Assembly: GCF_025231485.1 (NCBI RefSeq)
Contig: NZ_CP104003.1
Location: 3,921,960-3,985,959, forward strand
Reading direction: 5' to 3'
Source: Salinirubellus salinus
GTDB lineage: Archaea; Halobacteriota; Halobacteria; Halobacteriales; Haloarculaceae
DNA: 64,000 nt
Within the stretch, counting starts at the first letter, position 1. Every line of letters begins with the position of its first letter. This document shows, piece by piece, positions 9,701-53,112 of the stretch. The position numbers were made by a program, and so were the translations under genes. The notes beneath the pieces were generated by a model. The model did no database searches, was not told the origin of the DNA, and saw only the letters and a list, made by a program, of their open reading frames with translations.

Positions 9701-9715
9701 ATGACACGGACATGA
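9701..9715 (+). CDS. Four-codon leader ORF coupled to the MaoC gene (tentative)
   Basis: ATG-ACA-CGG-ACA-TGA begins eight bases after the dehydrogenase stop and ends in an ATGA overlap with the MaoC start at 9712. It could be chance; it is listed because similar tiny coupled ORFs precede other genes in this window. Confidence 0.2.
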   Translation: MTRT

Positions 9716-34920: not shown

Positions 34921-34947
34921 ATGCGACCCGAGGAAGCCGGCCGATGA
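34921..34947 (+). CDS. Eight-residue leader ORF coupled to the EamA gene (tentative)
   Basis: ATG CGA CCC GAG GAA GCC GGC CGA TGA ends in an ATGA overlap with the EamA start at 34944. No clear TATA box precedes it. It is one of several tiny coupled ORFs in this window; it could be chance. Confidence 0.25.
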   Translation: MRPEEAGR

Positions 34948-41930: not shown

Positions 41931-41937
41931 TTATTAC
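41931..41937 (+). promoter_or_regulatory. TATA box placed for a leaderless start at the mini-ORF 41959
   Basis: ttattac is 22-28 nt before the ATG at 41959 but 90-96 nt before the CoA-transferase ATG at 42027. Standard spacing would start the transcript on the mini-ORF. Confidence 0.5.
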
Positions 41938-41958
41938 GGCCGGTGCCGACCCGCAGGT

Positions 41959-42027
41959 ATGCCAGCAGCTAGCGACCGACGGTACCCGGCCGACGACGGA
42001 CGCGACCGCTCGACGGAGGCCCGGTGA
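41959..42027 (+). CDS. 22-residue leader ORF coupled to CoA-transferase copy 3
   Basis: The frame encodes a 22-residue peptide rich in Arg and Asp (opening MPAASDRRYPADDGRD). Its TGA shares one base with the ATG at 42027 (TGATG), and its ATG sits at the expected transcription start. Translation would run straight into the CoA-transferase gene. It has no recognisable domain; a coupling or attenuation role is possible. Confidence 0.4.
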   Translation: MPAASDRRYPADDGRDRSTEAR

Positions 42028-43253
42028 TGGTCGGGGAGGCCGAACACCCCGACGGCGACACTGGTCCGCTCGACGGTGTGACGGTGCTCGACGCCTCACG
42101 CGTGCTCGCGGGACCGTTCTGTACGATGCAACTGGGTGACCTCGGCGCGGACGTCGTCAAGATCGAACGGCGGGACGGTGGCGACCAGACCCGCGGCTGG
42201 CACCCGCCGACGTACGGCGACAGCGACGAGAGCGCCTACTACCTCTCTATCAACCGGAACAAGCGGTCGGTGACGCTGAACCTCGCCAGCGACGAGGGGC
42301 GAGCGGTGTTCCGCGACCTCGCGAGCGAGGCCGACGTCCTCGTCGAGAACTTCCGCGTCGGGAAGATGGCCGAGTGGGGGCTCGACTACGCGGACCTCCA
42401 CGAGGAGAACCCGGGGCTCGTCTACTGCTCGCTGTCCGGCTACGGCGAGTGGGGTCCCGACCGCGACCGCGCGGCGTACGACATCGTGATGCAGGCCGAG
42501 GCCGGGATGATGAGTATCACCGGGGTCGAGGACGGCCCGCCGGTCCGCGTCGGCGTCGCCATCGCCGACATCGGCGCGGGGATGTACTGCACGCAGGCCA
42601 TCCTCGCGGCGCTGTTCGCCCGCGAGTTCGGCGACGGGACGGGCCAGAAGATCGACGTCAGCCTGTTCGACGGGCAGGTGGCGTGGATGACGTACATGGC
42701 GTCGAACTACTTCGCCACCGGCGACCCGCCGGGGCGGATGGGGAGCAAGCACCCGACCATCGCGCCGTATCAGGCGTTCGCCACGCGGGACGGCTACGTG
42801 GTCGTCGCCGTCTCCTCCGAACACATGTGGCCTCGGTTCTGCCGTGCGATCGACCGCGAGGACCTCGTCGACGACCCCCGGTTCGAGGTCAACGCGAAGC
42901 GCGTCGAGAACCGCGAGACGCTCGACGCCCTGCTGGACGAGGAACTGGCCGACTACACCACCGACGAGCTGATGACCCGGCTCGACGAGACCGGCGTCCC
43001 CGCCAGTCCCGTCCAGTCGCTCGACGAGGTGTTCGACCGCGAGCAGGTCCGTGCCCGAGGGATGCGGCAGTCGGTCGAGCACCCCACCGCCGGCTCGGTG
43101 GAGATGCCGGGGAGCCCGATGTTCTTCTCGTCGACGCCCGCGACCATCCGACGGCACCCGCCGCTCCACGGCGAACACACGGACGAGGTGCTGACCGAGT
43201 ACGGCTACACCGAGGCCGACATCGAGCGGCTACGCGAGGGAGAGATCGTCTGA
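42027..43253 (+). CDS. Family III CoA-transferase (CaiB/BaiF type), copy 3 of 5
   Basis: The 408-residue protein has GVTVLDASRVLAGPFCTMQL, LGADVVKIE, RNKRSVTLNL and the probable catalytic Asp181 in VAIADIGAGMY. ATG 42027 is used; GTG 42024 is in frame directly before. A SnoaL-like gene follows 43 bp downstream on the same strand, each with its own AT-rich start region. The family spans formyl-, succinyl-, carnitine- and mesaconyl-CoA transferases; substrate unknown. Confidence 0.9.
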   Translation: MVGEAEHPDGDTGPLDGVTVLDASRVLAGPFCTMQLGDLGADVVKIERRDGGDQTRGWHPPTYGDSDESAYYLSINRNKRSVTLNLASDEGRAVFRDLASEADVLVENFRVGKMAEWGLDYADLHEENPGLVYCSLSGYGEWGPDRDRAAYDIVMQAEAGMMSITGVEDGPPVRVGVAIADIGAGMYCTQAILAALFAREFGDGTGQKIDVSLFDGQVAWMTYMASNYFATGDPPGRMGSKHPTIAPYQAFATRDGYVVVAVSSEHMWPRFCRAIDREDLVDDPRFEVNAKRVENRETLDALLDEELADYTTDELMTRLDETGVPASPVQSLDEVFDREQVRARGMRQSVEHPTAGSVEMPGSPMFFSSTPATIRRHPPLHGEHTDEVLTEYGYTEADIERLREGEIV

Positions 43254-43296
43254 GGCGGGGGCGAACGGCTAAGCGCCCCTCCGACGAACCCGCGGC

Positions 43297-43755
43297 ATGG
43301 CTCCCACCGACACCGCGGTACAGGAACTGCTGGACGCCCGCGCCATCGAGACGCTCCGGTACCGCTACTGCCAGCACGTCGACCGCCACGAGTACCGCGA
43401 GTGGGCGTCGCTGTTCGCCCCCGACGGGACGTTCACGTCGGACCTCCCGAACCGGGACGTCTACACCGGCCCCGACGAGATCTACCAGTTCGCCCGCGAC
43501 GTGCTCGACAACCCCGACGCACCCAACGCGGGCTACCTCTACTCGACACACGTCGCGGTGAACCCGGTGATCGAGGTGACGGACGACGCGGCGACCGGCC
43601 ACTGGTACTTCTTCCTCCGCTACGCGCTGGCGAACGGGACGAGCGGCTTCAAACACGGCCACTACGACGAGACGTACCGGCGGGTCGAGGACGAGTGGAA
43701 GTTCGCGTCCGTCCGGGTGGGGTTCGACTCGGCGGGGACGTTCGAGCCGGTCTAG
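43297..43755 (+). CDS. SnoaL-like/NTF2-fold protein
   Basis: The 152-residue protein opens with AVQELLDARAIETLRYRYCQHVDRHEYREWASLFAPDGTF, the usual start of the SnoaL-like domain (SnoaL_4 type), and ends with the WKFASVRVGFDS strand. Related proteins include small hydratases, isomerases and the beta subunit fold of ring-hydroxylating dioxygenases. TATA-like ggctaag is about 24-32 nt upstream. Its TAG stop overlaps the minus-strand stop of the DUF3179 gene by three bases. Confidence 0.8.
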   Translation: MAPTDTAVQELLDARAIETLRYRYCQHVDRHEYREWASLFAPDGTFTSDLPNRDVYTGPDEIYQFARDVLDNPDAPNAGYLYSTHVAVNPVIEVTDDAATGHWYFFLRYALANGTSGFKHGHYDETYRRVEDEWKFASVRVGFDSAGTFEPV

Positions 43756-44960
43756 TCCCGAGAGAAGGTGTAGTCCCCGTACACGGTCGTGTCGGGGTTG
43801 AAGTCCCGCCACGTCTCCCAGAACAGCTGTGGGACGTCCGTCGCCCGGACGAGCCGCTCCCCCTCGAACGGGCCGTCGACGGCCAGGCCGGTGAGCCGGC
43901 GCCAGCGCGAGCCCCCCGCCCGGAGGTGTCTGTCGTCCCACGCCTCGAAGGTGAGCGTCCGGCCCCGGACGCGCCGTTCGTACGCGACCAGCGAGGTGCC
44001 GGGCGCGACGGTGACGACGACGGGTACCCCGCCGACGACGTCGTTGACGACACGCTCCTCGACCACGACCGGGAGGGGATACGCACGGGCCGCCACACCG
44101 TACTCGACGCCGAGGACGTGTGTGAACTGCCCGCGGTCGAAGTCGGCTGCCTCGGGGCTCCCCGGGGCGCGCGTCGCGGGCTGGAGGTAGGTGCCGGTCG
44201 CGTTCATGCCGGGCTGGCCGTAGTAGAGCGGCTTCGAGAGCGGTGGTGGCAACAGCACCGCCGTGTCGGGGAACTCCTCACGCCACGCCCCCCACTTCGT
44301 CAGCGTCGACGGGACGAGCTCGAGGCGTTCGCCCGTCAGCTCACCGTTGATGGCGACCATCTCCGCCTGTGTCCAGAGACTCCTCGTCTCGCGGTCGTAC
44401 ATCACGAGGTTGAGCTTCCAGAGCAGTCCGCTCACGCCGAACGTCGCCTCCTCTCCGCGGACCTCTCGGACGGCGACGATGCTCGAGGCACACACCGGAC
44501 AGTAGGTGACGAGCAGCGGCCCGTGGAACTCGTCGTTCACGACCTCGTGGCCGGCGAGGACCCGCAGTGGGTACGCGCGGGCCTCGCCCTCGCGGACGAC
44601 CCCGACGACCGTGTCGTGGTCGGTGAGCCGCGGCTCGGTCTGGAACTCCCGCTCGGTCCCCGGAAAGTGCGTTATCGTGAGGTCGGCCCAGTCGGGCCCG
44701 AACGCCGGCTCCGTGATGGATCGGATGGCGTCCTTCGGGAGGCCGTTCAACATGTCCGCGACGGGGATGGGCAGCGCTTCGTCCGCGACGCGGCCGTAGT
44801 CGGCGGGGTCGCCCCGAGCAGCAGGCGGCTCCGTCTCGGCCGGCGTCGACGTGGGTGACGGAGCCTCGTCGTCGCGGCGGGGGGTGAACGCGGCGTAGCC
44901 CAACGCCCCGGCCGCGGTGCCGACGCCAGCGAGTCCGAGGAGGAGCTGTCGGCGGTGCAT
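43752..44960 (-). CDS. DUF3179-domain exported protein
   Basis: The 402-residue protein has an N-terminal MHRRQLLLGLAGVGTAAGALGYAA signal-like segment with a twin-Arg start, followed by a Pro/Thr/Glu linker to about residue 50. The body has the DUF3179 pattern, including GPLLVTYCPVCASSIVA (a CPxC motif) and WTQAEMVAINGELTG. Function is unknown; the CPxC could be redox-active or bind metal. It is likely exported. It overlaps the end of the SnoaL-like gene and appears unrelated to the catabolic operons. Confidence 0.85.
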   Translation of the reverse strand: MHRRQLLLGLAGVGTAAGALGYAAFTPRRDDEAPSPTSTPAETEPPAARGDPADYGRVADEALPIPVADMLNGLPKDAIRSITEPAFGPDWADLTITHFPGTEREFQTEPRLTDHDTVVGVVREGEARAYPLRVLAGHEVVNDEFHGPLLVTYCPVCASSIVAVREVRGEEATFGVSGLLWKLNLVMYDRETRSLWTQAEMVAINGELTGERLELVPSTLTKWGAWREEFPDTAVLLPPPLSKPLYYGQPGMNATGTYLQPATRAPGSPEAADFDRGQFTHVLGVEYGVAARAYPLPVVVEERVVNDVVGGVPVVVTVAPGTSLVAYERRVRGRTLTFEAWDDRHLRAGGSRWRRLTGLAVDGPFEGERLVRATDVPQLFWETWRDFNPDTTVYGDYTFSRD

Positions 44961-45052
44961 CGACGACGGTACGCGCAGGTCCGGTGAAAGCGCTATCGCG
45001 GTCTGGCGCCCCGTGCACAAGCCACAGTCGCGTACCGTAGGAGGCAACAGGG

Positions 45053-45059
45053 TTTATAC
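45053..45059 (+). promoter_or_regulatory. TATA box upstream of the CoA-transferase/HMGL-like operon
   Basis: tttatac stands out at 45053-45059 but is about 90 nt from the ATG at 45147, so a leader of about 60 nt is expected, unusual here. A GTG at 45094 opens a 31-codon frame overlapping the gene, but evidence for its use is weak. Confidence 0.4.
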
Positions 45060-45146
45060 CCGCTGCCACTAAACCGGGTAGCAACGTCGCCACGTGACCG
45101 TCCGGCTGCCAGCCGACCGACACGGGCGAGTATCGCACCACTACAC

Positions 45147-46358
45147 ATGTCAGAACCACACGAGGCCGTGGGACCGCTCGACGGGTTGACCGTCATCGAG
45201 GCCGGGTCGATGATCTCCGGTCCGACCGTCGGGCGACTCATGGCCGACTTCGGCGCAGACGTCATCAAGATCGAACACCCCGAGTTCGGCGACCACCTGC
45301 GGAACTTCGGCCCAAAGAAGAACGGGGCCGGGCTCTGGTGGAAGTACCTCGGCCGGAACAAACGGTCGGTCACCCTGAACCTCGGGAGCGAACGCGGGCA
45401 GGTCGTCTTCGAGGACCTCGTGAGCGAGGCCGACGTGCTCGTCGAGAACTTCCGCCCGGGCACCTTCGAGAAGTGGAACCTCGGCTACGACCGCCTGCGT
45501 GAGCTGAACCCCGACCTCGTGATGCTTCGCCTCTCGGGGTTCGGGCAGGACGGCCCGTACGCCGAGCGGCCGGGGTTCGGCACGCTCGCGGAGGCGATGT
45601 CCGGGTTCGCGTATCTCAACGGCTTCCCCGATCGGCCGCCGCTGTTGCCGCCGACGGGGCTCGCCGACGGCATCGCCGCCCTCTACTCGACGTTCGCCGT
45701 GATGTTCGCGCTCTACCACCGCGACGTGAACGGCGGGTCGGGACAGGTCATCGACACCAGCCTCATCGAGCCCATCTTCTCGCTGCTCGGTCCACAGCCG
45801 CTCCGCTACGACCAGCTGGGCGAGATCGAGTCCCGGTCCGGGAACCAGTCGACCAGCAGCGCGCCGCGGAACGTCTACCAGACGGGCGACGACCGGTACG
45901 TCGCCATCTCGGCCAGCGCCCAACCCATCGCGATGCGGGTGTTCGACGCCATCGACCGCCCCGACCTGAAGGACGACCCGCGGTTCGAGACGAACGCGAG
46001 ACGGCTGGCGAACGTCGACGAACTCGACGCCATCATCGAGGGGTGGATGGACGAGCACACCCGGGCGGAGGTGCTGGAGGCGTTCGAGGCGGCGGACGCG
46101 ACCATCGCCCCCATCTACAACGTCGAGGACATCCTCGCCGACGAGCACTACCAGGCCCGCGACGCCGTGGTCGGTATCGCGGACGAACAGCTCGGGGAGG
46201 CGCGCGTGCAGGACGCGTTCCCGCGGTTCTCCGAGACGCCCGGCCGCGTCGAGTATCTCGGTCCCGAACTCGGTGCCCACAACGACGCGGTGTACGGCGG
46301 CCGGCTCGGCTACGACGACGACACGCTCGCGGAACTCGAATCCGAGGGGGTCATCTGA
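45147..46358 (+). CDS. Family III CoA-transferase (CaiB/BaiF type), copy 4 of 5
   Basis: The 403-residue protein has GLTVIEAGSMISGPTVGRLM, FGADVIKIEHPEFGDHLRNFG and the probable catalytic Asp174 in TGLADGIAALY. It leads a five-gene operon: CoA-transferase, HMG-CoA-lyase-like, aconitase-type large and small subunits, with an acyl-CoA dehydrogenase close behind. Its TGA shares a base with the next ATG. It likely makes the CoA ester that the lyase-like enzyme cleaves. It is most like copy 2 at 20851, which is also paired with a C-C lyase. Confidence 0.9.
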   Translation: MSEPHEAVGPLDGLTVIEAGSMISGPTVGRLMADFGADVIKIEHPEFGDHLRNFGPKKNGAGLWWKYLGRNKRSVTLNLGSERGQVVFEDLVSEADVLVENFRPGTFEKWNLGYDRLRELNPDLVMLRLSGFGQDGPYAERPGFGTLAEAMSGFAYLNGFPDRPPLLPPTGLADGIAALYSTFAVMFALYHRDVNGGSGQVIDTSLIEPIFSLLGPQPLRYDQLGEIESRSGNQSTSSAPRNVYQTGDDRYVAISASAQPIAMRVFDAIDRPDLKDDPRFETNARRLANVDELDAIIEGWMDEHTRAEVLEAFEAADATIAPIYNVEDILADEHYQARDAVVGIADEQLGEARVQDAFPRFSETPGRVEYLGPELGAHNDAVYGGRLGYDDDTLAELESEGVI

Positions 46359-47308
46359 TGCGGCTCCCCGACGCGGTCCACGTCGTCGAGATGCTCCCGC
46401 GCGACGGCTTCCAGCGACTGGACGAGTTCGTCCCGACCGACGAGAAGGTCGCCATCATCGACCGACTGAGCGAGACGGGCGTCGACGAGATCGAGATCTC
46501 GTCGTTCACCCACCCGAAGGCCGTCCCCACGCTCAGAGACGCGGACGAGGTGGCGAAGCGGATCGAACGACGTGACGACGTGGCGTACCGTGCGCTCGTC
46601 CCGAACCTCCGGGGGATGGAGCGGGCGGTCGACGCCGAGGTCGACAAGGTGAACGCACTCGTCACCGTCAGCGAGACGTACACGGAGAAGAACGTCAACA
46701 GCACCCGCGAGGCGGTGCTCGCGGGGATGGACGACATCGTCGAACTGGCCCACGACCACGGCATCGAGGTGGAGTGTGGGATGGGGACGAGCTTCTACTG
46801 CCCGTACGAGGGTCGGATCGACCCCGAGGAGACGCTCGGGGTGGTCGACCGCGTCGTCGAGGCCGGCGTCGACGAGGTGACGCTGGCGACGACGATGGGG
46901 CTCGCCAACCCCGTCGAGGTCTCCGAGATGTTCTCGGCCGTGTTCGAGCGCCACCCCGACCTCGACGTGGGACTCCACCTCCACGACACCAACGGGATGA
47001 GTCTCGCCAACACGCTCGCGGCGATGGACTGCGGCGTCGACCGGTTCGACGCCTCCGTCTGCGGGCTCGGCGGCGGCGTCGTCCTCGCCGAGGGACTGTC
47101 GGGCGTCGGCAACACCCCCACCGAGGACCTCGTCCACATGCTCTCGCGGATGGGCGTCGACACCCGCGCCGACTTCGCCACCGTCGAGACCGTGGCCGAC
47201 GAGGTGCGCGAGCGACTGGGGCTCGGCGCGACGAGCCACGTCCTCATGGGCGGCACCGTCGAGAACGTGCTCCGTACGATGGGGAGCGACGACGGAGGGA
47301 CGGCATGA
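46358..47308 (+). CDS. HMG-CoA lyase-like protein with altered lid cysteine
   Basis: The 316-residue DRE-TIM-type barrel has Arg15-Asp16 (LPRDGFQ), metal-binding His207/His209 (HLHDTNG) and Asn252 (VGNTPTED), as in HMG-CoA lyase. The active-site lid motif, normally GLGGC, reads C235-G-L-G-G-G240, so the catalytic Cys is replaced by Gly while a Cys appears four residues earlier. It could cleave a different hydroxyacyl-CoA or work with a moved Cys. It is coupled to genes on both sides (TGATG and ATGA). Neighbouring aconitase-type genes suggest a citramalyl- or alkyl-malyl-type substrate rather than leucine breakdown. Confidence 0.83.
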   Translation: MRLPDAVHVVEMLPRDGFQRLDEFVPTDEKVAIIDRLSETGVDEIEISSFTHPKAVPTLRDADEVAKRIERRDDVAYRALVPNLRGMERAVDAEVDKVNALVTVSETYTEKNVNSTREAVLAGMDDIVELAHDHGIEVECGMGTSFYCPYEGRIDPEETLGVVDRVVEAGVDEVTLATTMGLANPVEVSEMFSAVFERHPDLDVGLHLHDTNGMSLANTLAAMDCGVDRFDASVCGLGGGVVLAEGLSGVGNTPTEDLVHMLSRMGVDTRADFATVETVADEVRERLGLGATSHVLMGGTVENVLRTMGSDDGGTA

Positions 47309-48627
47309 CGGGCAAGACGCTCGCCGAGAAGCTCCTCTCGGCGAAGGCCGGCGAGGACGTCCGTGCGGGCGACTACATCGAAGCGCAGGTGGACGTGGCG
47401 ATGGCACACGACATCACCGGTCCGCTCGCGTTCCAGACGTTCGAGGAGGTGACCGGCGGTGAGGGTGACCTGTTCGCGCCAGGCCGCACCATCTTGACCA
47501 TCGACCACCACGCGCCCGCCGACGGGGTGCAGGCGGCGAACAACCACAACGCCATCCGCGAGTTCGCGGCCGAACACGGCGCGCACCAGTACGACGTCGG
47601 CGACGGCATCTGCCACCAGGTGCTCATCGAGGAGGGCCACGTCGCCCCGGGTGACCTCGTCATCGGTGCGGACTCGCACTCGACGACGTACGGCGGCATC
47701 GGCGCGTTCGGGACGGGTGTCGGCTCCTCGGACCTCGGCACGGCGCTCGCCACGGGCGAACTCTGGTTCCGTGTCCCCGAGACGCTGCGGTTCGTCGTGG
47801 AGGGAGACCTCCCCGAGGGCGTCTACGCGAAGGACCTCATCCTCCGGTTCATCGGGGACGTGGGGTTCGCGGGCTGTACGTACATGGCCGCGGAGTACGT
47901 CGGATCGACCGTCGAATCGCTCCCCGTCCACCAGCGACTCGTCCTCACCAACATGGCCATCGAGATGGGCGGGAAGACCGGACTCGTGCCCGCCGACGAC
48001 CGCGTGGCTCGCTTCCTCGAGGCCGAGACCGGGCAGGCAGTCGAGTTGCCCGCCCCCGAGGACCGCCGCTCGGACGACGACGCCGAGTTCGCCAGCGTCC
48101 ACGAGTACCGCGCCGAGGAGCTAGCGCCGCAGGTGTCGAAACCGTCGAACCCCGAGAACGCCGTCGACGTGGGCGAGGTCGCGGGGACGGACGTCGACCA
48201 GCTGTTCGTCGGCACCTGCACCAACGGGCGATACGAGGACATCTCGCTGGTCGCCTCGGTGCTGGAGGGCGAGACGCTCGCGTCCGGCACCCGGATGGTC
48301 GTGGTGCCGGCGTCGGGGTCCGTGTACCGCAAGCTCCTCGCGACCGGCGAGATGGCGACGCTCGTCGACGCCGGCGCCGTCGTCCAGGCGGCCGGCTGTG
48401 GCCCCTGTGCCGGCTACCACCAGGGCGTGCTCGGCGACGGCGACGTCTGTCTCGCCACCGCCAACCGGAACTTCCCCGGCCGTGAAGGCTCGATGGAGTC
48501 GTCGGTGTACCTGGCGAGCCCCGCGACCGTCGCGGTGTCGGCGCTGTACGGCGAGATCACCGACCCACGCGAGTACGACGGGCTGCCACGGTTCGACGAC
48601 CACGCGCTCGCGGAGGTGGAGGCGTGA
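47305..48627 (+). CDS. Aconitase-superfamily hydratase, large subunit, set 2
   Basis: The 440-residue protein has the cluster cysteines in VGTCTNGRYED and AAGCGPCAGYHQG, and GADSHSTTYGGIGAFGTGVGSSD. It is a paralogue of the product at 27365 but not a close copy. It starts inside the stop of the HMGL-like gene and is followed by its small subunit with GTGA overlap. LeuC-like homoaconitase, citramalate isomerase and dimethylmaleate hydratase are the alternatives; the absence of other leucine genes argues against isopropylmalate isomerase. Confidence 0.88.
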   Translation: MTGKTLAEKLLSAKAGEDVRAGDYIEAQVDVAMAHDITGPLAFQTFEEVTGGEGDLFAPGRTILTIDHHAPADGVQAANNHNAIREFAAEHGAHQYDVGDGICHQVLIEEGHVAPGDLVIGADSHSTTYGGIGAFGTGVGSSDLGTALATGELWFRVPETLRFVVEGDLPEGVYAKDLILRFIGDVGFAGCTYMAAEYVGSTVESLPVHQRLVLTNMAIEMGGKTGLVPADDRVARFLEAETGQAVELPAPEDRRSDDDAEFASVHEYRAEELAPQVSKPSNPENAVDVGEVAGTDVDQLFVGTCTNGRYEDISLVASVLEGETLASGTRMVVVPASGSVYRKLLATGEMATLVDAGAVVQAAGCGPCAGYHQGVLGDGDVCLATANRNFPGREGSMESSVYLASPATVAVSALYGEITDPREYDGLPRFDDHALAEVEA

Positions 48628-49133
48628 CCGACCCGAGCACACCTGCGAGAGCGTGGGTGTTCGGCGACGACGTCGACACCGACCAGATCGCCCCCTCGCG
48701 GTTCATCGTCTCCTCGGACCCCGAGGAACTCGCCGAGCACGCGTTCAACGACCTCCGACCCGAGTTCGCCGCCGAGGTCGAGGCGGGCGAGTTCGTCGTG
48801 GCGGGGACGAACTTCGGGAGCGGCTCCTCGCGCGAGCAGGCCCCACTCGCGCTCGCGGGGGCCGGGGTGGCGGGCATCGTCGCCCAGTCGTTCGCCCGCA
48901 TCTTCTTCCGGAACTGCATCAACCTCGGGCTCCCGGTGCTCATCTGCCCCGAGGTGGGGAACGTCTCCGACGGCGACGAGATCAGCATGGACCTCGACGC
49001 GGGTCTCGTCGAGAACCACACGACGGGCGAGCAGTACGATGCCGAGCCACTGCCCCCGTTCCTGCAGGAACTCGTCGACGTGGGCGGGCTGAAGGCGTAC
49101 ACGAAGGCCAAGCTCGCTGCCGACCGGGAGTGA
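48624..49133 (+). CDS. Aconitase-superfamily hydratase, small subunit, set 2
   Basis: The 169-residue swivel-domain protein has DVDTDQIAPSRFI and NFGSGSSREQAPLAL. It starts with GTG overlapping the large-subunit stop. A length near 170 residues is normal for LeuD-type archaeal subunits. It completes a heterodimeric hydratase made together with the HMGL-like lyase. Confidence 0.88.
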   Translation: MTDPSTPARAWVFGDDVDTDQIAPSRFIVSSDPEELAEHAFNDLRPEFAAEVEAGEFVVAGTNFGSGSSREQAPLALAGAGVAGIVAQSFARIFFRNCINLGLPVLICPEVGNVSDGDEISMDLDAGLVENHTTGEQYDAEPLPPFLQELVDVGGLKAYTKAKLAADRE

Positions 49134-49177
49134 CCCGCGTGACGAACGTTCAAGACGTGACGGCCGGAAGGTGGCGT

Positions 49178-49273
49178 ATGCCTGCACGCACCCCTCCGGC
49201 CGCGCCCCGGTGCTCGTCGCTCGCCCGCGTCTGTCGGTCCGCTCCGCTCGACACTCCCGACGGTGGTCGCTGA
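49178..49273 (+). CDS. 31-residue leader ORF coupled to the acyl-CoA dehydrogenase at 49273 (tentative)
   Basis: An ATG at 49178 opens a Pro/Arg-rich 31-codon frame whose TGA shares one base with the dehydrogenase ATG (TGATG). The only TATA-like candidate, cgttcaaga about 25-33 nt upstream, is weak. The dehydrogenase frame itself is open upstream to 49171, but that extension is unlike the family. Confidence 0.3.
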   Translation: MPARTPPAAPRCSSLARVCRSAPLDTPDGGR

Positions 49274-50439
49274 TGGACGCCTTCGAGACCGACATCGCCG
49301 ACGGCGTCCTCTCCGACGAGCACCGGATGCTCCGGGCCGAGACCCGGAGGTTCGTGACCAACGAGGTGCTCCCGGAGGCGCGCGAGCGCGACCCCGAGAA
49401 GGCGAACATGTCGGCCGAACTCGTCGACCAGCTCGCCGAGATGGGCTTCTTCGGCATCCTCGTCGACGAGGCGTACGACGGCCTCGGCCTCGACCTGAAG
49501 GCCTACGCCGTCATCGCGGAGGAGTTGTCGAGAGGCTGGCTCAGCGTCGGCAGCATCATCGCTCGCGGGCAGAGCCTCGCGGGTGCGACCGAGGCACAGC
49601 GCGAGTACTACCTCCCGAAGATGGCCCGTGGCGAACTGCTCAAGGCCATCGCCATCTCCGAACCGGGCGCGGGCTCGGACGTGGCGAACATGCGCACGCG
49701 AGCGGAGCGCGACGGTGACGAGTACGTGCTGAACGGGCAGAAGATGTGGACCACGTTCGCGAAGGGTGCCGACTTCATCCTGACGTACGCGGTCACCGAC
49801 CCGGACGCGGAGCCGGCGTACACCGGTATCTCGGGGTTCATCGTCGAGAAGCCCGCGGGCACCTTCGACCGCGAGGGACTGAGCGGGCAGCGCGTGAACA
49901 AGATCGGCTACCACGGCTGGGACACCTGGATGGTGAACTTCGACGACGTGCGCGTCCCCGCCGACACGCTCGTGGGCGAGGCGGAGGGGAAGGGGTTCTA
50001 CCAGATCGTGGAGTTCTTCGAGGAGGGGCGGGTCCACACCGCGGCGCGAGCGGTCGGACTGGCACGGGCCGCGCTGGAGGACTCGCTGTCGTACAGCCGG
50101 GAGCGCGAGCAGTTCGGCCAACCCATCGGCGAGTTCCAGGCGACCCGATTCAAGTTGGCCGAGATGGCGACGAAGGTCGAGGCCGCGCGGGCGCTGACGC
50201 TGCTCGTCGCGGAGGCCGTCGACCGTGGCGAGCGGGCCGACGCGCAGGCCGCGATGGCGAAACTGTTCGCCACGGACGTCGCCGAGGAGGTGACGAGCGA
50301 GGGTATCCAGATCCACGGCGGCTACGGCTACACCACCGACTTCGACGTCGAGCGCCACTGGCGCGACGCCCGGCTCACACGCATCTTCGAGGGGACCAAC
50401 GAGATCCAGAAGCGCATCATCGCCGACCGGCTGTTCTGA
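49273..50439 (+). CDS. Acyl-CoA dehydrogenase
   Basis: The 388-residue protein has AIAISEPGAGSDVANMRT, DTWMVNFDDVRVPADTLVG, EREQFGQPIGEFQATRFKLAEMA and a C-terminal IQIHGGYGYTTDFDVERHWRDARLTRIFEGTNEIQ typical of short/branched-chain acyl-CoA dehydrogenases. ATG 49273 is chosen because MDAFETDI starts the family's first helix; the 34-residue upstream extension is Arg/Ser-rich. It lies 139 bp beyond the hydratase genes and is convergent with CoA-transferase copy 5. Confidence 0.92.
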   Translation: MDAFETDIADGVLSDEHRMLRAETRRFVTNEVLPEARERDPEKANMSAELVDQLAEMGFFGILVDEAYDGLGLDLKAYAVIAEELSRGWLSVGSIIARGQSLAGATEAQREYYLPKMARGELLKAIAISEPGAGSDVANMRTRAERDGDEYVLNGQKMWTTFAKGADFILTYAVTDPDAEPAYTGISGFIVEKPAGTFDREGLSGQRVNKIGYHGWDTWMVNFDDVRVPADTLVGEAEGKGFYQIVEFFEEGRVHTAARAVGLARAALEDSLSYSREREQFGQPIGEFQATRFKLAEMATKVEAARALTLLVAEAVDRGERADAQAAMAKLFATDVAEEVTSEGIQIHGGYGYTTDFDVERHWRDARLTRIFEGTNEIQKRIIADRLF

Positions 50440-50451
50440 GGCCCCGCGACC

Positions 50452-51666
50452 TCACGCCTCGTCCAGTTCGCCGACGACGCCCGCCGCCACCAGCCGCTCG
50501 ATTGCCGTGTCGTCGAGCCCGACCTCCTCGAGGACGGCCCGTGAGTGTTCACCGAGTCGGGGGGGATGTCGGTCGACACTCGGTTCGGCACGCTCGTACT
50601 TGACCGGGAAGCCCAGCGTCTCCACCTCGCCGGCCGTCGGGTGGTCGAGCGTGCGACGCATCTGGCGGGCCTCGACCTGCGGGTCGTCCCAGACCGAGAC
50701 GGTGTCGTTGATGGGCGCGGCCGGAACGCCGGCCTCGCGGAGCGCCGCCACGAGGTCGCTCGCGTCCCACCGCTCCAGCACGGCCGTCAGTTCCGCTTCG
50801 AGCGCCTCCCGGTTCGCCACCCGTTCGTTCACCTCCGCGAACCGCTCGTCGGCGGCCAGTGCCGGGGCATCGACCGCCTCGCAGAACGCCCGCCAGTGGC
50901 GGTCGGTGACGACCGACAGCTGGACGGCGCCGTCGGCGACCTCGTAGACCCCCTCGGGCGCGAAGTAGTTGTGTCGACGGCCGAAGGGTGGGTACGGCTC
51001 GCCCGTGGCGAAACTGTACGTCGCGCGCGTGGTGAGCCCGGCCAGCCCGGCGTCGAGCAGCGAGACGTCGACGAACTCGCCCTCGCCCGTCCGGTCGCGG
51101 GCGTACAGCGCGGTGAGGATGCCCTGGACGGCGTACAGCGCGGCGAACACGTCGTTCATCGGGACGCCCGAGCGCATCGGGCCGGAGTCCCCGTCGCGTG
51201 TCATCGACATCGCGCCGCCGAGCGCCTGCACCGTCGTGTCGATGCCCGGGAACTCCCGATAGGGTCCCGTCTCGCCGTACGCGGAGATGGAACAGTAGAC
51301 GATCTGCTCGTTGTGTTCGCGGGCGGTCTCGTAGCCGATGTCGTACCGGTCGGTGAACGTCGGCGGGAAGTTCTCCAGCACCACGTCCGCGGCCTCGACG
51401 AGCTCCAGGAACAGCTCGCGTCCCTCGTCGGTCGTGACGTCGAGCGCGAGACTCCGCTTGTTCCGGTTCGCGGTCAGGTAGTAGAAGCTCTCGCCCGCCG
51501 CACCGCCGACCCGCGGTTCGAGGCTCCGGGCGAGTTCACCGGTCTCCGGGCGCTCCAGTTTCACCACGTCGGCACCGAGGTCGCCGAGCAACTGACCGGC
51601 GTACGGGCCGGCGATCATGGTCGAGAGTTCGAGGACGGAGACGTCCGCGAGTGGCTTCGTCGTCAT
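50452..51666 (-). CDS. Family III CoA-transferase (CaiB/BaiF type), copy 5 of 5
   Basis: The 404-residue protein has DVSVLELSTMIAGPYAGQLL, LGADVVKLERPETGE, ANRNKRSLALDV and the probable catalytic Asp172 in GVPMNDVFAALY. It converges on the acyl-CoA dehydrogenase gene with a 12-bp gap, so it is not co-transcribed with it. The frame is open upstream to 51849, but the family start is at MTTKPLADVSVLE. A GGGAAC-G-GTTCCC palindrome lies about 80 bp upstream. Confidence 0.9.
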   Translation of the reverse strand: MTTKPLADVSVLELSTMIAGPYAGQLLGDLGADVVKLERPETGELARSLEPRVGGAAGESFYYLTANRNKRSLALDVTTDEGRELFLELVEAADVVLENFPPTFTDRYDIGYETAREHNEQIVYCSISAYGETGPYREFPGIDTTVQALGGAMSMTRDGDSGPMRSGVPMNDVFAALYAVQGILTALYARDRTGEGEFVDVSLLDAGLAGLTTRATYSFATGEPYPPFGRRHNYFAPEGVYEVADGAVQLSVVTDRHWRAFCEAVDAPALAADERFAEVNERVANREALEAELTAVLERWDASDLVAALREAGVPAAPINDTVSVWDDPQVEARQMRRTLDHPTAGEVETLGFPVKYERAEPSVDRHPPRLGEHSRAVLEEVGLDDTAIERLVAAGVVGELDEA

Positions 51667-51746
51667 CTGTCTGTACGCCACTGGCGCCGACGCCAGCATC
51701 ACGCTTTGGGTCCGTCCGGGGCGGGGAACGCACCCGCTCCTCCGGG

Positions 51747-51759
51747 GGGAACGGTTCCC
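51747..51759. promoter_or_regulatory. GGGAAC-G-GTTCCC palindrome
   Basis: A perfect 13-bp odd palindrome lies in the 315-bp divergent region between CoA-transferase copy 5 and the acyl-CoA dehydrogenase unit. It uses the same half-site type as the palindrome at 31857 and the A-type sites near the iclR genes. Confidence 0.35.
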
Positions 51760-51851
51760 ACGAGCGACGATGCGGATGGGGCGGGTGGACGCCGGCACTG
51801 GGTGACCTGTCTGACGTCGTGTGGAACGGCCGCCGTGGGGCAGTCTCAATC

Positions 51852-51860
51852 TATAAATAA
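51852..51860 (+). promoter_or_regulatory. Strong TATA box upstream of the mini-ORF 51882
   Basis: tataaataa is among the best TATA boxes here. It lies 22-30 nt before the ATG at 51882, but more than 120 nt before the dehydrogenase ATG at 51982, so transcription should start at the mini-ORF. Confidence 0.6.
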
Positions 51861-51881
51861 CTGAGTTACCACCGGTGAAGT

Positions 51882-51977
51882 ATGCGACCGAGCCACACGC
51901 ACCCTGCCGAGCGCCGGGACTCGATGGAGACCCGGACGACCGACCCCATCACCACCCGGCAGCGGCGGGGGCGGTGA
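51882..51977 (+). CDS. 31-residue leader ORF before the acyl-CoA dehydrogenase at 51982
   Basis: The frame opens MRPSHTHPAERRDSMETRT and is Arg/Thr-rich with no Lys. Its TGA ends four bases before the dehydrogenase ATG. Because its ATG coincides with the start expected from the TATA box, a leaderless mRNA would translate this peptide first. No domain is recognised. It is the best-supported member of a group of small coupled ORFs. Confidence 0.45.
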   Translation: MRPSHTHPAERRDSMETRTTDPITTRQRRGR

Positions 51978-51981
51978 GTCG

Positions 51982-53112
51982 ATGGAGTTCCAGCTCACCG
52001 ACGAACAGCGACTCGTCAAGCGCACCGCGAGCGAACTCGCCGAGTCACAGTTCGCAGACGCGGCGTTCACGTGGGATGGCGACATCCCGTGGCCGAACGT
52101 CGAGACGCTCGCCGACCAGGGGTTGCTCGGCATCTCGCTGCCCGAGGCCTACGGCGGCGGGGGGTACGAGGTGCTCGACGTCCTGCTCGCACAGGAGGCC
52201 GTCGGGCGGGTCTGTCCCGACACCGCACACGTCCTCTCGCGGTCCTCGATGGGCGTGCCGCGCGTCATCGCCGAGCTCGGGTCGGACTACCTGAAGGAGC
52301 GGTACCTCCCGCCCGTCACGGCTGGGGAGTCCATCCTCTCCATCGCCATCTCCGAGTCGGAGGCCGGCTCCGACGCCGGCGCGATGCAGACCACGGCGCG
52401 CGAGGAGGGCGACGAGGTTGTGCTGGACGGCCACAAGATGTGGGTGTCGAAGGGGACCCACGCCGACGCCTTCCTCGTCTACGCGCGGTTCGCGGAGACC
52501 GACCGCATCGGCGCGGTCGTCGTCGATGCCGACGCGCCCGGACTCACGGTAGAGGACGGCTACGTCAACATGGCCGACCACCGGCAGAACGTCCTCCGGT
52601 TCGACGACTGCCGGATTCCGGTCGAGCACGAACTCGCCGTCGGTGCGGACGCGTTCAAGGAGCTCCTCGCGGAGTTCAACGTCGAGCGGTGTCACAACGC
52701 GATGATGTGCGTCGCCTGCGGGCTGAACGCCTTCGACACGGCTCGCGAGCACGCCGCCGACCGCGAGCAGTTCGGCCAGCCCATCGGCGAGTTCCAGGCC
52801 ATCGAGCACAAGCTCGCGGACATGGCCATCAACCTCGACGCCGCCCGCCTCCTCGTCTACCGGACGGCCGCGAACGCCCGCGGTGGAACGGCCTCGCGGA
52901 TGGAGGCCTCCATCGCGAAGGTGTTCGCCAACGAGGCCGGTCAGGAGGTCGTCGACCAGGCGATGCAGATCTGCGGTGCGATGGGCTACTCGAAGGACAG
53001 CCCCCTCGAGTACCTCTACCGGTGGGTCCGCGGCTGGCGCATCGCGGGCGGTACCGTCGAGATCCACCGCAACGGCATCGCCGAGCAGCTGCGGAAGTAC
53101 GGGTTCGAGTGA
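51982..53112 (+). CDS. Acyl-CoA dehydrogenase
   Basis: The 376-residue protein has AISESEAGSDAGAMQTT, a DREQFGQPIGEFQAIEHKLADMAIN segment and a C-terminal QICGAMGYSKDSPLEYLYRWVRGWRIAGGTVEIHRN. It has the full FAD-dependent dehydrogenase length. One base separates its stop from the ADP-forming acyl-CoA synthetase gene, so acid activation and dehydrogenation are coupled. Substrate class cannot be told. Confidence 0.92.
   Translation: MEFQLTDEQRLVKRTASELAESQFADAAFTWDGDIPWPNVETLADQGLLGISLPEAYGGGGYEVLDVLLAQEAVGRVCPDTAHVLSRSSMGVPRVIAELGSDYLKERYLPPVTAGESILSIAISESEAGSDAGAMQTTAREEGDEVVLDGHKMWVSKGTHADAFLVYARFAETDRIGAVVVDADAPGLTVEDGYVNMADHRQNVLRFDDCRIPVEHELAVGADAFKELLAEFNVERCHNAMMCVACGLNAFDTAREHAADREQFGQPIGEFQAIEHKLADMAINLDAARLLVYRTAANARGGTASRMEASIAKVFANEAGQEVVDQAMQICGAMGYSKDSPLEYLYRWVRGWRIAGGTVEIHRNGIAEQLRKYGFE

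Follow-up and report, generated by a model that had tools for sequence, protein, structure and literature searches.

Leaderless mini-cistrons as putative ribosome carriers to enzyme genes in Salinirubellus salinus and other haloarchaea

Analysis of a 64,000-nucleotide (nt) stretch of the haloarchaeon Salinirubellus salinus (contig NZ_CP104003.1, positions 3,921,960 to 3,985,959; hereafter the window) has drawn attention to three tiny open reading frames (ORFs), with start codons at ATG 41959 (site 1), ATG 51882 (site 2) and ATG 49178 (site 3), that close at the starts of a coenzyme A (CoA)-transferase gene and two acyl-CoA dehydrogenase genes. From the evidence assembled below, we consider it quite likely that all three are leaderless mini-cistrons that hand ribosomes to the enzyme genes by termination-reinitiation; re-initiation appears to be well supported for the class and for site 1, and likely for sites 2 and 3. 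It also seems fairly probable that haloarchaea contain a genome-wide class of such leaderless, peptide-independent mini-cistrons, some tens per genome, which would have evolved repeatedly and would give coupling-dependent, formerly operon-internal genes a promoter of their own.

The positions of the small ORFs, their stops and the upstream boxes were verified base by base on the window sequence. The original prediction had placed ORFs of 22 and 31 codons at ATGs 41959 and 51882, 28-30 nt past TATA boxes and with stops at the next ATG, and had noted a further ORF at 49178 closing as TGATG on an acyl-CoA dehydrogenase start; all of these positions proved exact on recheck, the box at 49178 being the weaker one. 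Genes were called with a simple, codon-usage-based program written for this analysis, and a leaderless-promoter matrix was derived from 664 ATG-started genes (A at -34/-33, TTWW from -29 to -26, A at -10 and T at -1). On this matrix the small ATGs 41959, 51882 and 49178 score 10.7, 9.4 and 11.4, among the best in 1.26 Mb of the window's genome, and the enzyme ATGs 42027, 51982 and 49273 score -7.9, -9.0 and -13.8, respectively. The Shine-Dalgarno match comprises five bases at sites 1 and 2 and four at site 3, and a 1-nt stop/start overlap of the termination-reinitiation type is present at sites 1 and 3, not at site 2.

A rival explanation is that this arrangement has arisen by chance, with plain untranslated leaders in a genome of 69% GC (guanine plus cytosine), where stops are rare, an ATG falling near the transcription start by coincidence, and the enzymes translated from a conventional 5'-untranslated region (5'-UTR). 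In its favor, 28% of mapped Haloferax protein-coding transcripts have 5'-UTRs (PMC4983044), small out-of-frame ORFs closing at gene starts are common by chance, and there is no comparative support for sites 2 and 3. We nevertheless regard chance as unlikely, given that coupled ATGs are about five-fold enriched in leaderless promoters, that the frame survives many length changes, and that the main starts are rich in Shine-Dalgarno motifs and lack a promoter of their own.

The enrichment comes from a survey of 1.26 Mb of the window's genome plus 0.4 Mb each of three other haloarchaeal genomes (G013, G057 and the Halorubrum genome G036), in which an upstream ATG was called coupled if its ORF stopped between positions -12 and +13 relative to the start of the following gene, and leaderless if its promoter scored at least 6. 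A leaderless promoter was found at 28 of 261 coupled upstream ATGs vs. 17 of 750 other out-of-frame upstream ATGs (odds ratio 5.2, p=1.4e-7), with the promoter signal at coupled ATGs being maximal at the exact leaderless spacing. Exact stop/start overlap was likewise more frequent among leaderless upstream ATGs (22/45) than among low-scoring ones (118/896; p=2.8e-8). When 17 other trinucleotides were used as pseudo-starts, a leaderless promoter was found at 0-3.4% of those exactly coupled vs. 14.0% for ATG; GTG-initiated mini-cistrons in the same survey showed no excess (8/389 coupled vs. 51/3035 other). Extrapolation from the shorter hits in the window's own genome suggests some tens of loci of this class per genome. 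Two of the 22 exact overlaps exceed 45 codons and, as possibly real small proteins, are weak evidence for the class. In a separate observation, a 57-codon leaderless SecE-like ORF (L247:18007-18444 in G013, with a matching locus in the window's genome) stops two bases before a NusG/Spt5-like gene; this ORF is a real small protein picked up by the mini-cistron survey.

The genes behind the 22 exactly overlapping leaderless ORFs also differ from those behind chance-coupled ORFs in how they begin. Immediately ahead of the main start, a Shine-Dalgarno match spanning 5 nt or more was present in 13/22 of the former vs. 17/118 of the latter (p=2.4e-5), the comparison sets being leaderless genes (30/795) and genes at most 6 nt from the preceding gene (167/360). 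In addition, only 1/22 had a leaderless promoter of its own at the main start, vs. 41/118 of the chance-coupled genes. With both features taken together, these first genes therefore look like coupled genes inside operons.

The original prediction had put forward conservation of the small frames in relatives as a check, and we found position and frame to be kept in the site 1 family and in two further families, the peptide not. Among 79 haloarchaeal orthologue loci of the site 1 CoA-transferase, 39, in addition to the window, were scored as having a small leaderless ORF (6-69 codons) closing between -7 and +10 from the gene start; the remaining loci include genes directly behind another gene and directly leaderless genes. 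The arrangement extends over about ten genera (Halorubrum, Halobellus, Halopenitus, Halegenticoccus, Halogeometricum, Halospeciosus, Natribaculum, Halorussus, Halorarius and others), with a few marginal cases, e.g. Halorientalis. In Halorubrum, the spacing from TATA to ATG is fixed, and the distance from ATG to gene start takes the values 40, 64, 79, 136 and 160 nt, each of them 1 mod 3. A quickly built protein tree with hand-assigned state labels shows nine switches of the arrangement, five of which are forced by well supported branches. In the nearest syntenic relative found, Halorarius litoreus, in which the CoA-transferase is 92% identical, the ATG and the TTAT core of site 1 are conserved. 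Two side observations concern the same family and its kind of ORF: most Halorubrum orthologues begin with GTG behind the mini-cistron, most of those in other genera with ATG; and the H. amylolyticum mini-cistron (L136, upstream of 10001) has been lengthened by 24-nt tandem repeats with its frame intact, tandem repeats being also expanded, in frame, in the mini-cistron at L319 upstream of 1501.

To avoid judging from the site 1 family alone, we took further families from high-scoring hits in other genomes. In the second, which encodes a 565-residue Halorubrum protein, the leaderless ATG is kept in 30/30 species at 80, 83, 92, 107, 116, 146 or 230 nt from the gene start, all 2 mod 3; 28/30 close as ATGA, one falls 12 nt short and another extends into the gene. 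Distances in the third family, from the genus of G013, are 62 and 29 nt, in one frame, with 3/8 members lying behind another gene or having no such feature. As a control, the spacing between these ATGs and the gene upstream of them was examined, and it obeys no multiple-of-three rule.

What is conserved in these ORFs does not seem to be the product, and this bears on another possibility, namely that functional micro-proteins are produced from the small ORFs, in an operon with the enzyme. Some leaderless coupled ORFs of more than 45 codons in the survey do resemble real small proteins (zinc-ribbon-like, SecE-like). Against this, variability at codon positions 1/2/3 is 0.78/0.81/0.48 in the CoA-transferase family and 0.53/0.49/0.57 in the second family; because positions 1 and 2 are no less variable than position 3, the peptide is not the conserved part. 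No conservation at the amino acid level was detected in these two families, the peptides of one genus are unrelated to those of another, and the ORFs tolerate expansion of repeats in frame, all of which render a micro-protein role very improbable. Given that the position of the frame is kept across species while the peptide drifts, we surmise that the role of the tiny frame is probably to carry ribosomes to the enzyme start codon.

The lack of a conserved peptide also bears on attenuation, which the original prediction had raised as an alternative and according to which the rate of translation of a sensing leader peptide, e.g. at Arg codons, would control the downstream gene. The longer peptides had been described as Arg-rich and free of Lys, and Arg can reach 7/16 residues in some Halorubrum orthologues; moreover, the candidate attenuators of mycobacteria include leaderless ORFs rich in cysteine (PMC4633059). 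The description stands in that the peptides are Arg-rich and Lys-poor, but this is mostly a matter of base composition, with 19% Arg and 0.6% Lys in leaderless coupled ORFs vs. 15% and 1.4% in the ordinary small ORFs that these genomes contain. There is no conserved codon run for a relevant amino acid, peptide length and sequence vary freely among relatives, and no link between the enzymes and arginine is apparent. A run of TTTT is present in 0/22 leaders, and thus no terminator is evident; the longest T run is 1 at site 1 and 2 at site 3. We therefore view attenuation as extremely unlikely.

The setting of sites 2 and 3 fits the proposal, also in the original prediction, that such ORFs offer a compact means of starting internal genes. 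In the H. litoreus locus, the aconitase small subunit gene and the acyl-CoA dehydrogenase gene that corresponds to site 2 overlap as TAATG after a purine-rich stretch, the latter gene thus being operon-internal and coupled. In the window, a two-gene stretch separates the aconitase-type small subunit gene from the acyl-CoA dehydrogenase gene at 51982, which here has its own promoter and mini-cistron behind the two additional genes. This fits mini-cistron 2 standing in place of a lost upstream partner, a wording that holds equally for an insertion here or a deletion there.

Taken together, the originally predicted course, in which a small peptide is translated without a leader and the ribosome then re-initiates on the next gene, appears to have good support from the position of the promoters, conservation of the frame, the Shine-Dalgarno content and main starts that lack a promoter. 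We envision that transcription would begin at or within a few bases of the small ATG, as the promoter spacing implies, and that the ribosome would therefore initiate on the 5'-terminal AUG of the transcript. After reading 22-31 codons, it would terminate on the enzyme start codon or four bases before it, and may then re-initiate on the enzyme gene, aided by the Shine-Dalgarno motif embedded in the mini-cistron. The peptide would be disposable, with selection maintaining the frame, the distance from promoter to ATG and the place where the ORF stops, and an operon-internal gene with a coupling-shaped start could in this way become expressible as the first gene of a transcript. Several points weigh against this proposal. 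The stop at site 2 does not overlap the start of its gene but lies across a 4-nt gap, and the stop of the H. litoreus site 1 ORF falls 10 nt inside the main gene as a result of a net 4-nt change in length. For sites 2 and 3, no conserved orthologous locus was found, the H. litoreus locus being without the two genes. Judging from the survey, about one in five hits of this kind would be due to chance, and the promoter score is a consensus match to a matrix made here, with gene starts taken from a caller made here.

The features of the window are collected in Table 1. The enzymes encoded between 42027 and 55177 comprise two CoA-transferases, an HMGL-like lyase, aconitase-type large and small subunits, acyl-CoA dehydrogenases and an acyl-CoA ligase of the ADP-forming type; the set looks like a catabolic CoA-ester pathway. 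Two shorter ORFs that had been reported to close on the starts at 34944 and 9712 do exist. The one at 34944 is weaker than the three main ORFs, and the other (9701-9715, four codons, MTRT and stop) is attributed to chance, scoring -3.9 and beginning 7 nt past the stop of the preceding gene.

Table 1. Mini-cistrons, promoter elements and associated genes in the window
Feature	Position	Strand	Details
TATA element TTATTA	41931..41936	+	Site 1; 28 nt 5' of ATG 41959
Mini-cistron 1	41959..42027	+	22 codons, peptide MPAASDRRYPADDGRDRSTEAR then stop; TGA 42025-42027; TGATG overlap on ATG 42027
Shine-Dalgarno motif GGAGG	42015..42019	+	Within mini-cistron 1
CoA-transferase family III gene	42027..43253	+	Behind mini-cistron 1; Pfam PF02515
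TATA element TATAAATA	51852..51859	+	Site 2; 30 nt 5' of ATG 51882
Mini-cistron 2	51882..51977	+	31 codons + TGA (51975-51977); stop four bases before ATG 51982
Shine-Dalgarno-like GGTGA	51973..51977	+	Overlaps mini-cistron 2 stop
Acyl-CoA dehydrogenase gene	51982..53112	+	Behind mini-cistron 2; Pfam; TAATG-coupled to preceding gene in H. litoreus
Weak TATA-like element TTCAAG	49149..49154	+	Site 3; 29 nt 5' of ATG 49178; promoter context good
Mini-cistron 3	49178..49273	+	31 codons + TGA; TGATG overlap on ATG 49273
Acyl-CoA dehydrogenase gene	49273..50439	+	Behind mini-cistron 3; Pfam
Stretch with acyl-CoA dehydrogenase gene and reverse CoA-transferase gene	49134..51981	.	Missing from H. litoreus locus; contains mini-cistrons 2 and 3
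8-codon ORF MRPEEAGR then stop	34921..34947	+	ATGA overlap on 34944 (EamA-type transporter); score 3.7, weaker than the three main ORFs

Leaderless initiation predominates in Haloferax volcanii, accounting for 72% of the mapped protein-coding transcripts (PMC4983044). Shine-Dalgarno motifs do not function at the 5'-UTRs of this species, but coupling is strict in 9/9 overlapping gene pairs (PMC6728339). If our proposal is true, part of the non-leaderless first genes in haloarchaea would be initiated, in spite of the inactivity of Shine-Dalgarno motifs at 5'-UTRs, through a "leader" that is itself a leaderless ORF, which would provide a concrete answer for part of the 28% of H. volcanii transcripts that are leadered. 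The class would join leaderless initiation to termination-reinitiation, and predicts unannotated small ORFs with ribosome footprints that encode no meaningful protein. It would also supply a rule by which gene starts can be checked, and archaeal bicistronic expression cassettes could be modelled on this natural example. Delivery of ribosomes by short ORFs has been named as a possible route of initiation in a 2025 review. We regard our case as the putative archaeal variant of a design known from mycobacteria and from a synthetic cassette; we found no archaeal report of it, which does not prove prior absence.

The closest likeness within the same group of organisms is to the overlapping gene pairs of H. 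volcanii (Huber et al. 2019, PMC6728339), which share the 1- or 4-nt overlap and the Shine-Dalgarno motif inside the upstream ORF; the upstream partner there is an annotated gene, whereas here it is a frame of 6-45 codons without a conserved product. In the part of Babski et al. (2016, PMC4983044) drawn on here, 16 small ORFs are described in long 5'-UTRs of Haloferax; like ours, they are ORFs of 15-31 codons before normal genes in a haloarchaeon but, unlike the window ORFs, sit in leaders of 150-250 nt, with a start at the 5' end and coupling of the stop outside the analysis presented in that part. In mycobacteria, Shell et al. (2015, PMC4633059) described leaderless coupled small ORFs on the basis of transcription start sites and ribosome data, and suggested that such ORFs deliver ribosomes irrespective of the peptide. 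As in that case, the stop overlaps the next start above chance and the architecture is kept while the peptide drifts, so that the haloarchaeal class, if true, would be the archaeal counterpart of the mycobacterial ORFs; unlike that case, in which transcript starts were mapped, ours is built from sequence alone, in archaea with TATA/BRE (B recognition element) promoters, with frames kept across dozens of species. The same elements, a leaderless promoter, a short fore-cistron and an embedded Shine-Dalgarno motif, make up the leaderless bicistronic design of Corynebacterium glutamicum, in which expression of the target needs both translation of the fore-cistron and the Shine-Dalgarno motif (PMC10367133); in contrast to that engineered bacterial cassette, the haloarchaeal arrangement is natural and evolutionarily conserved.

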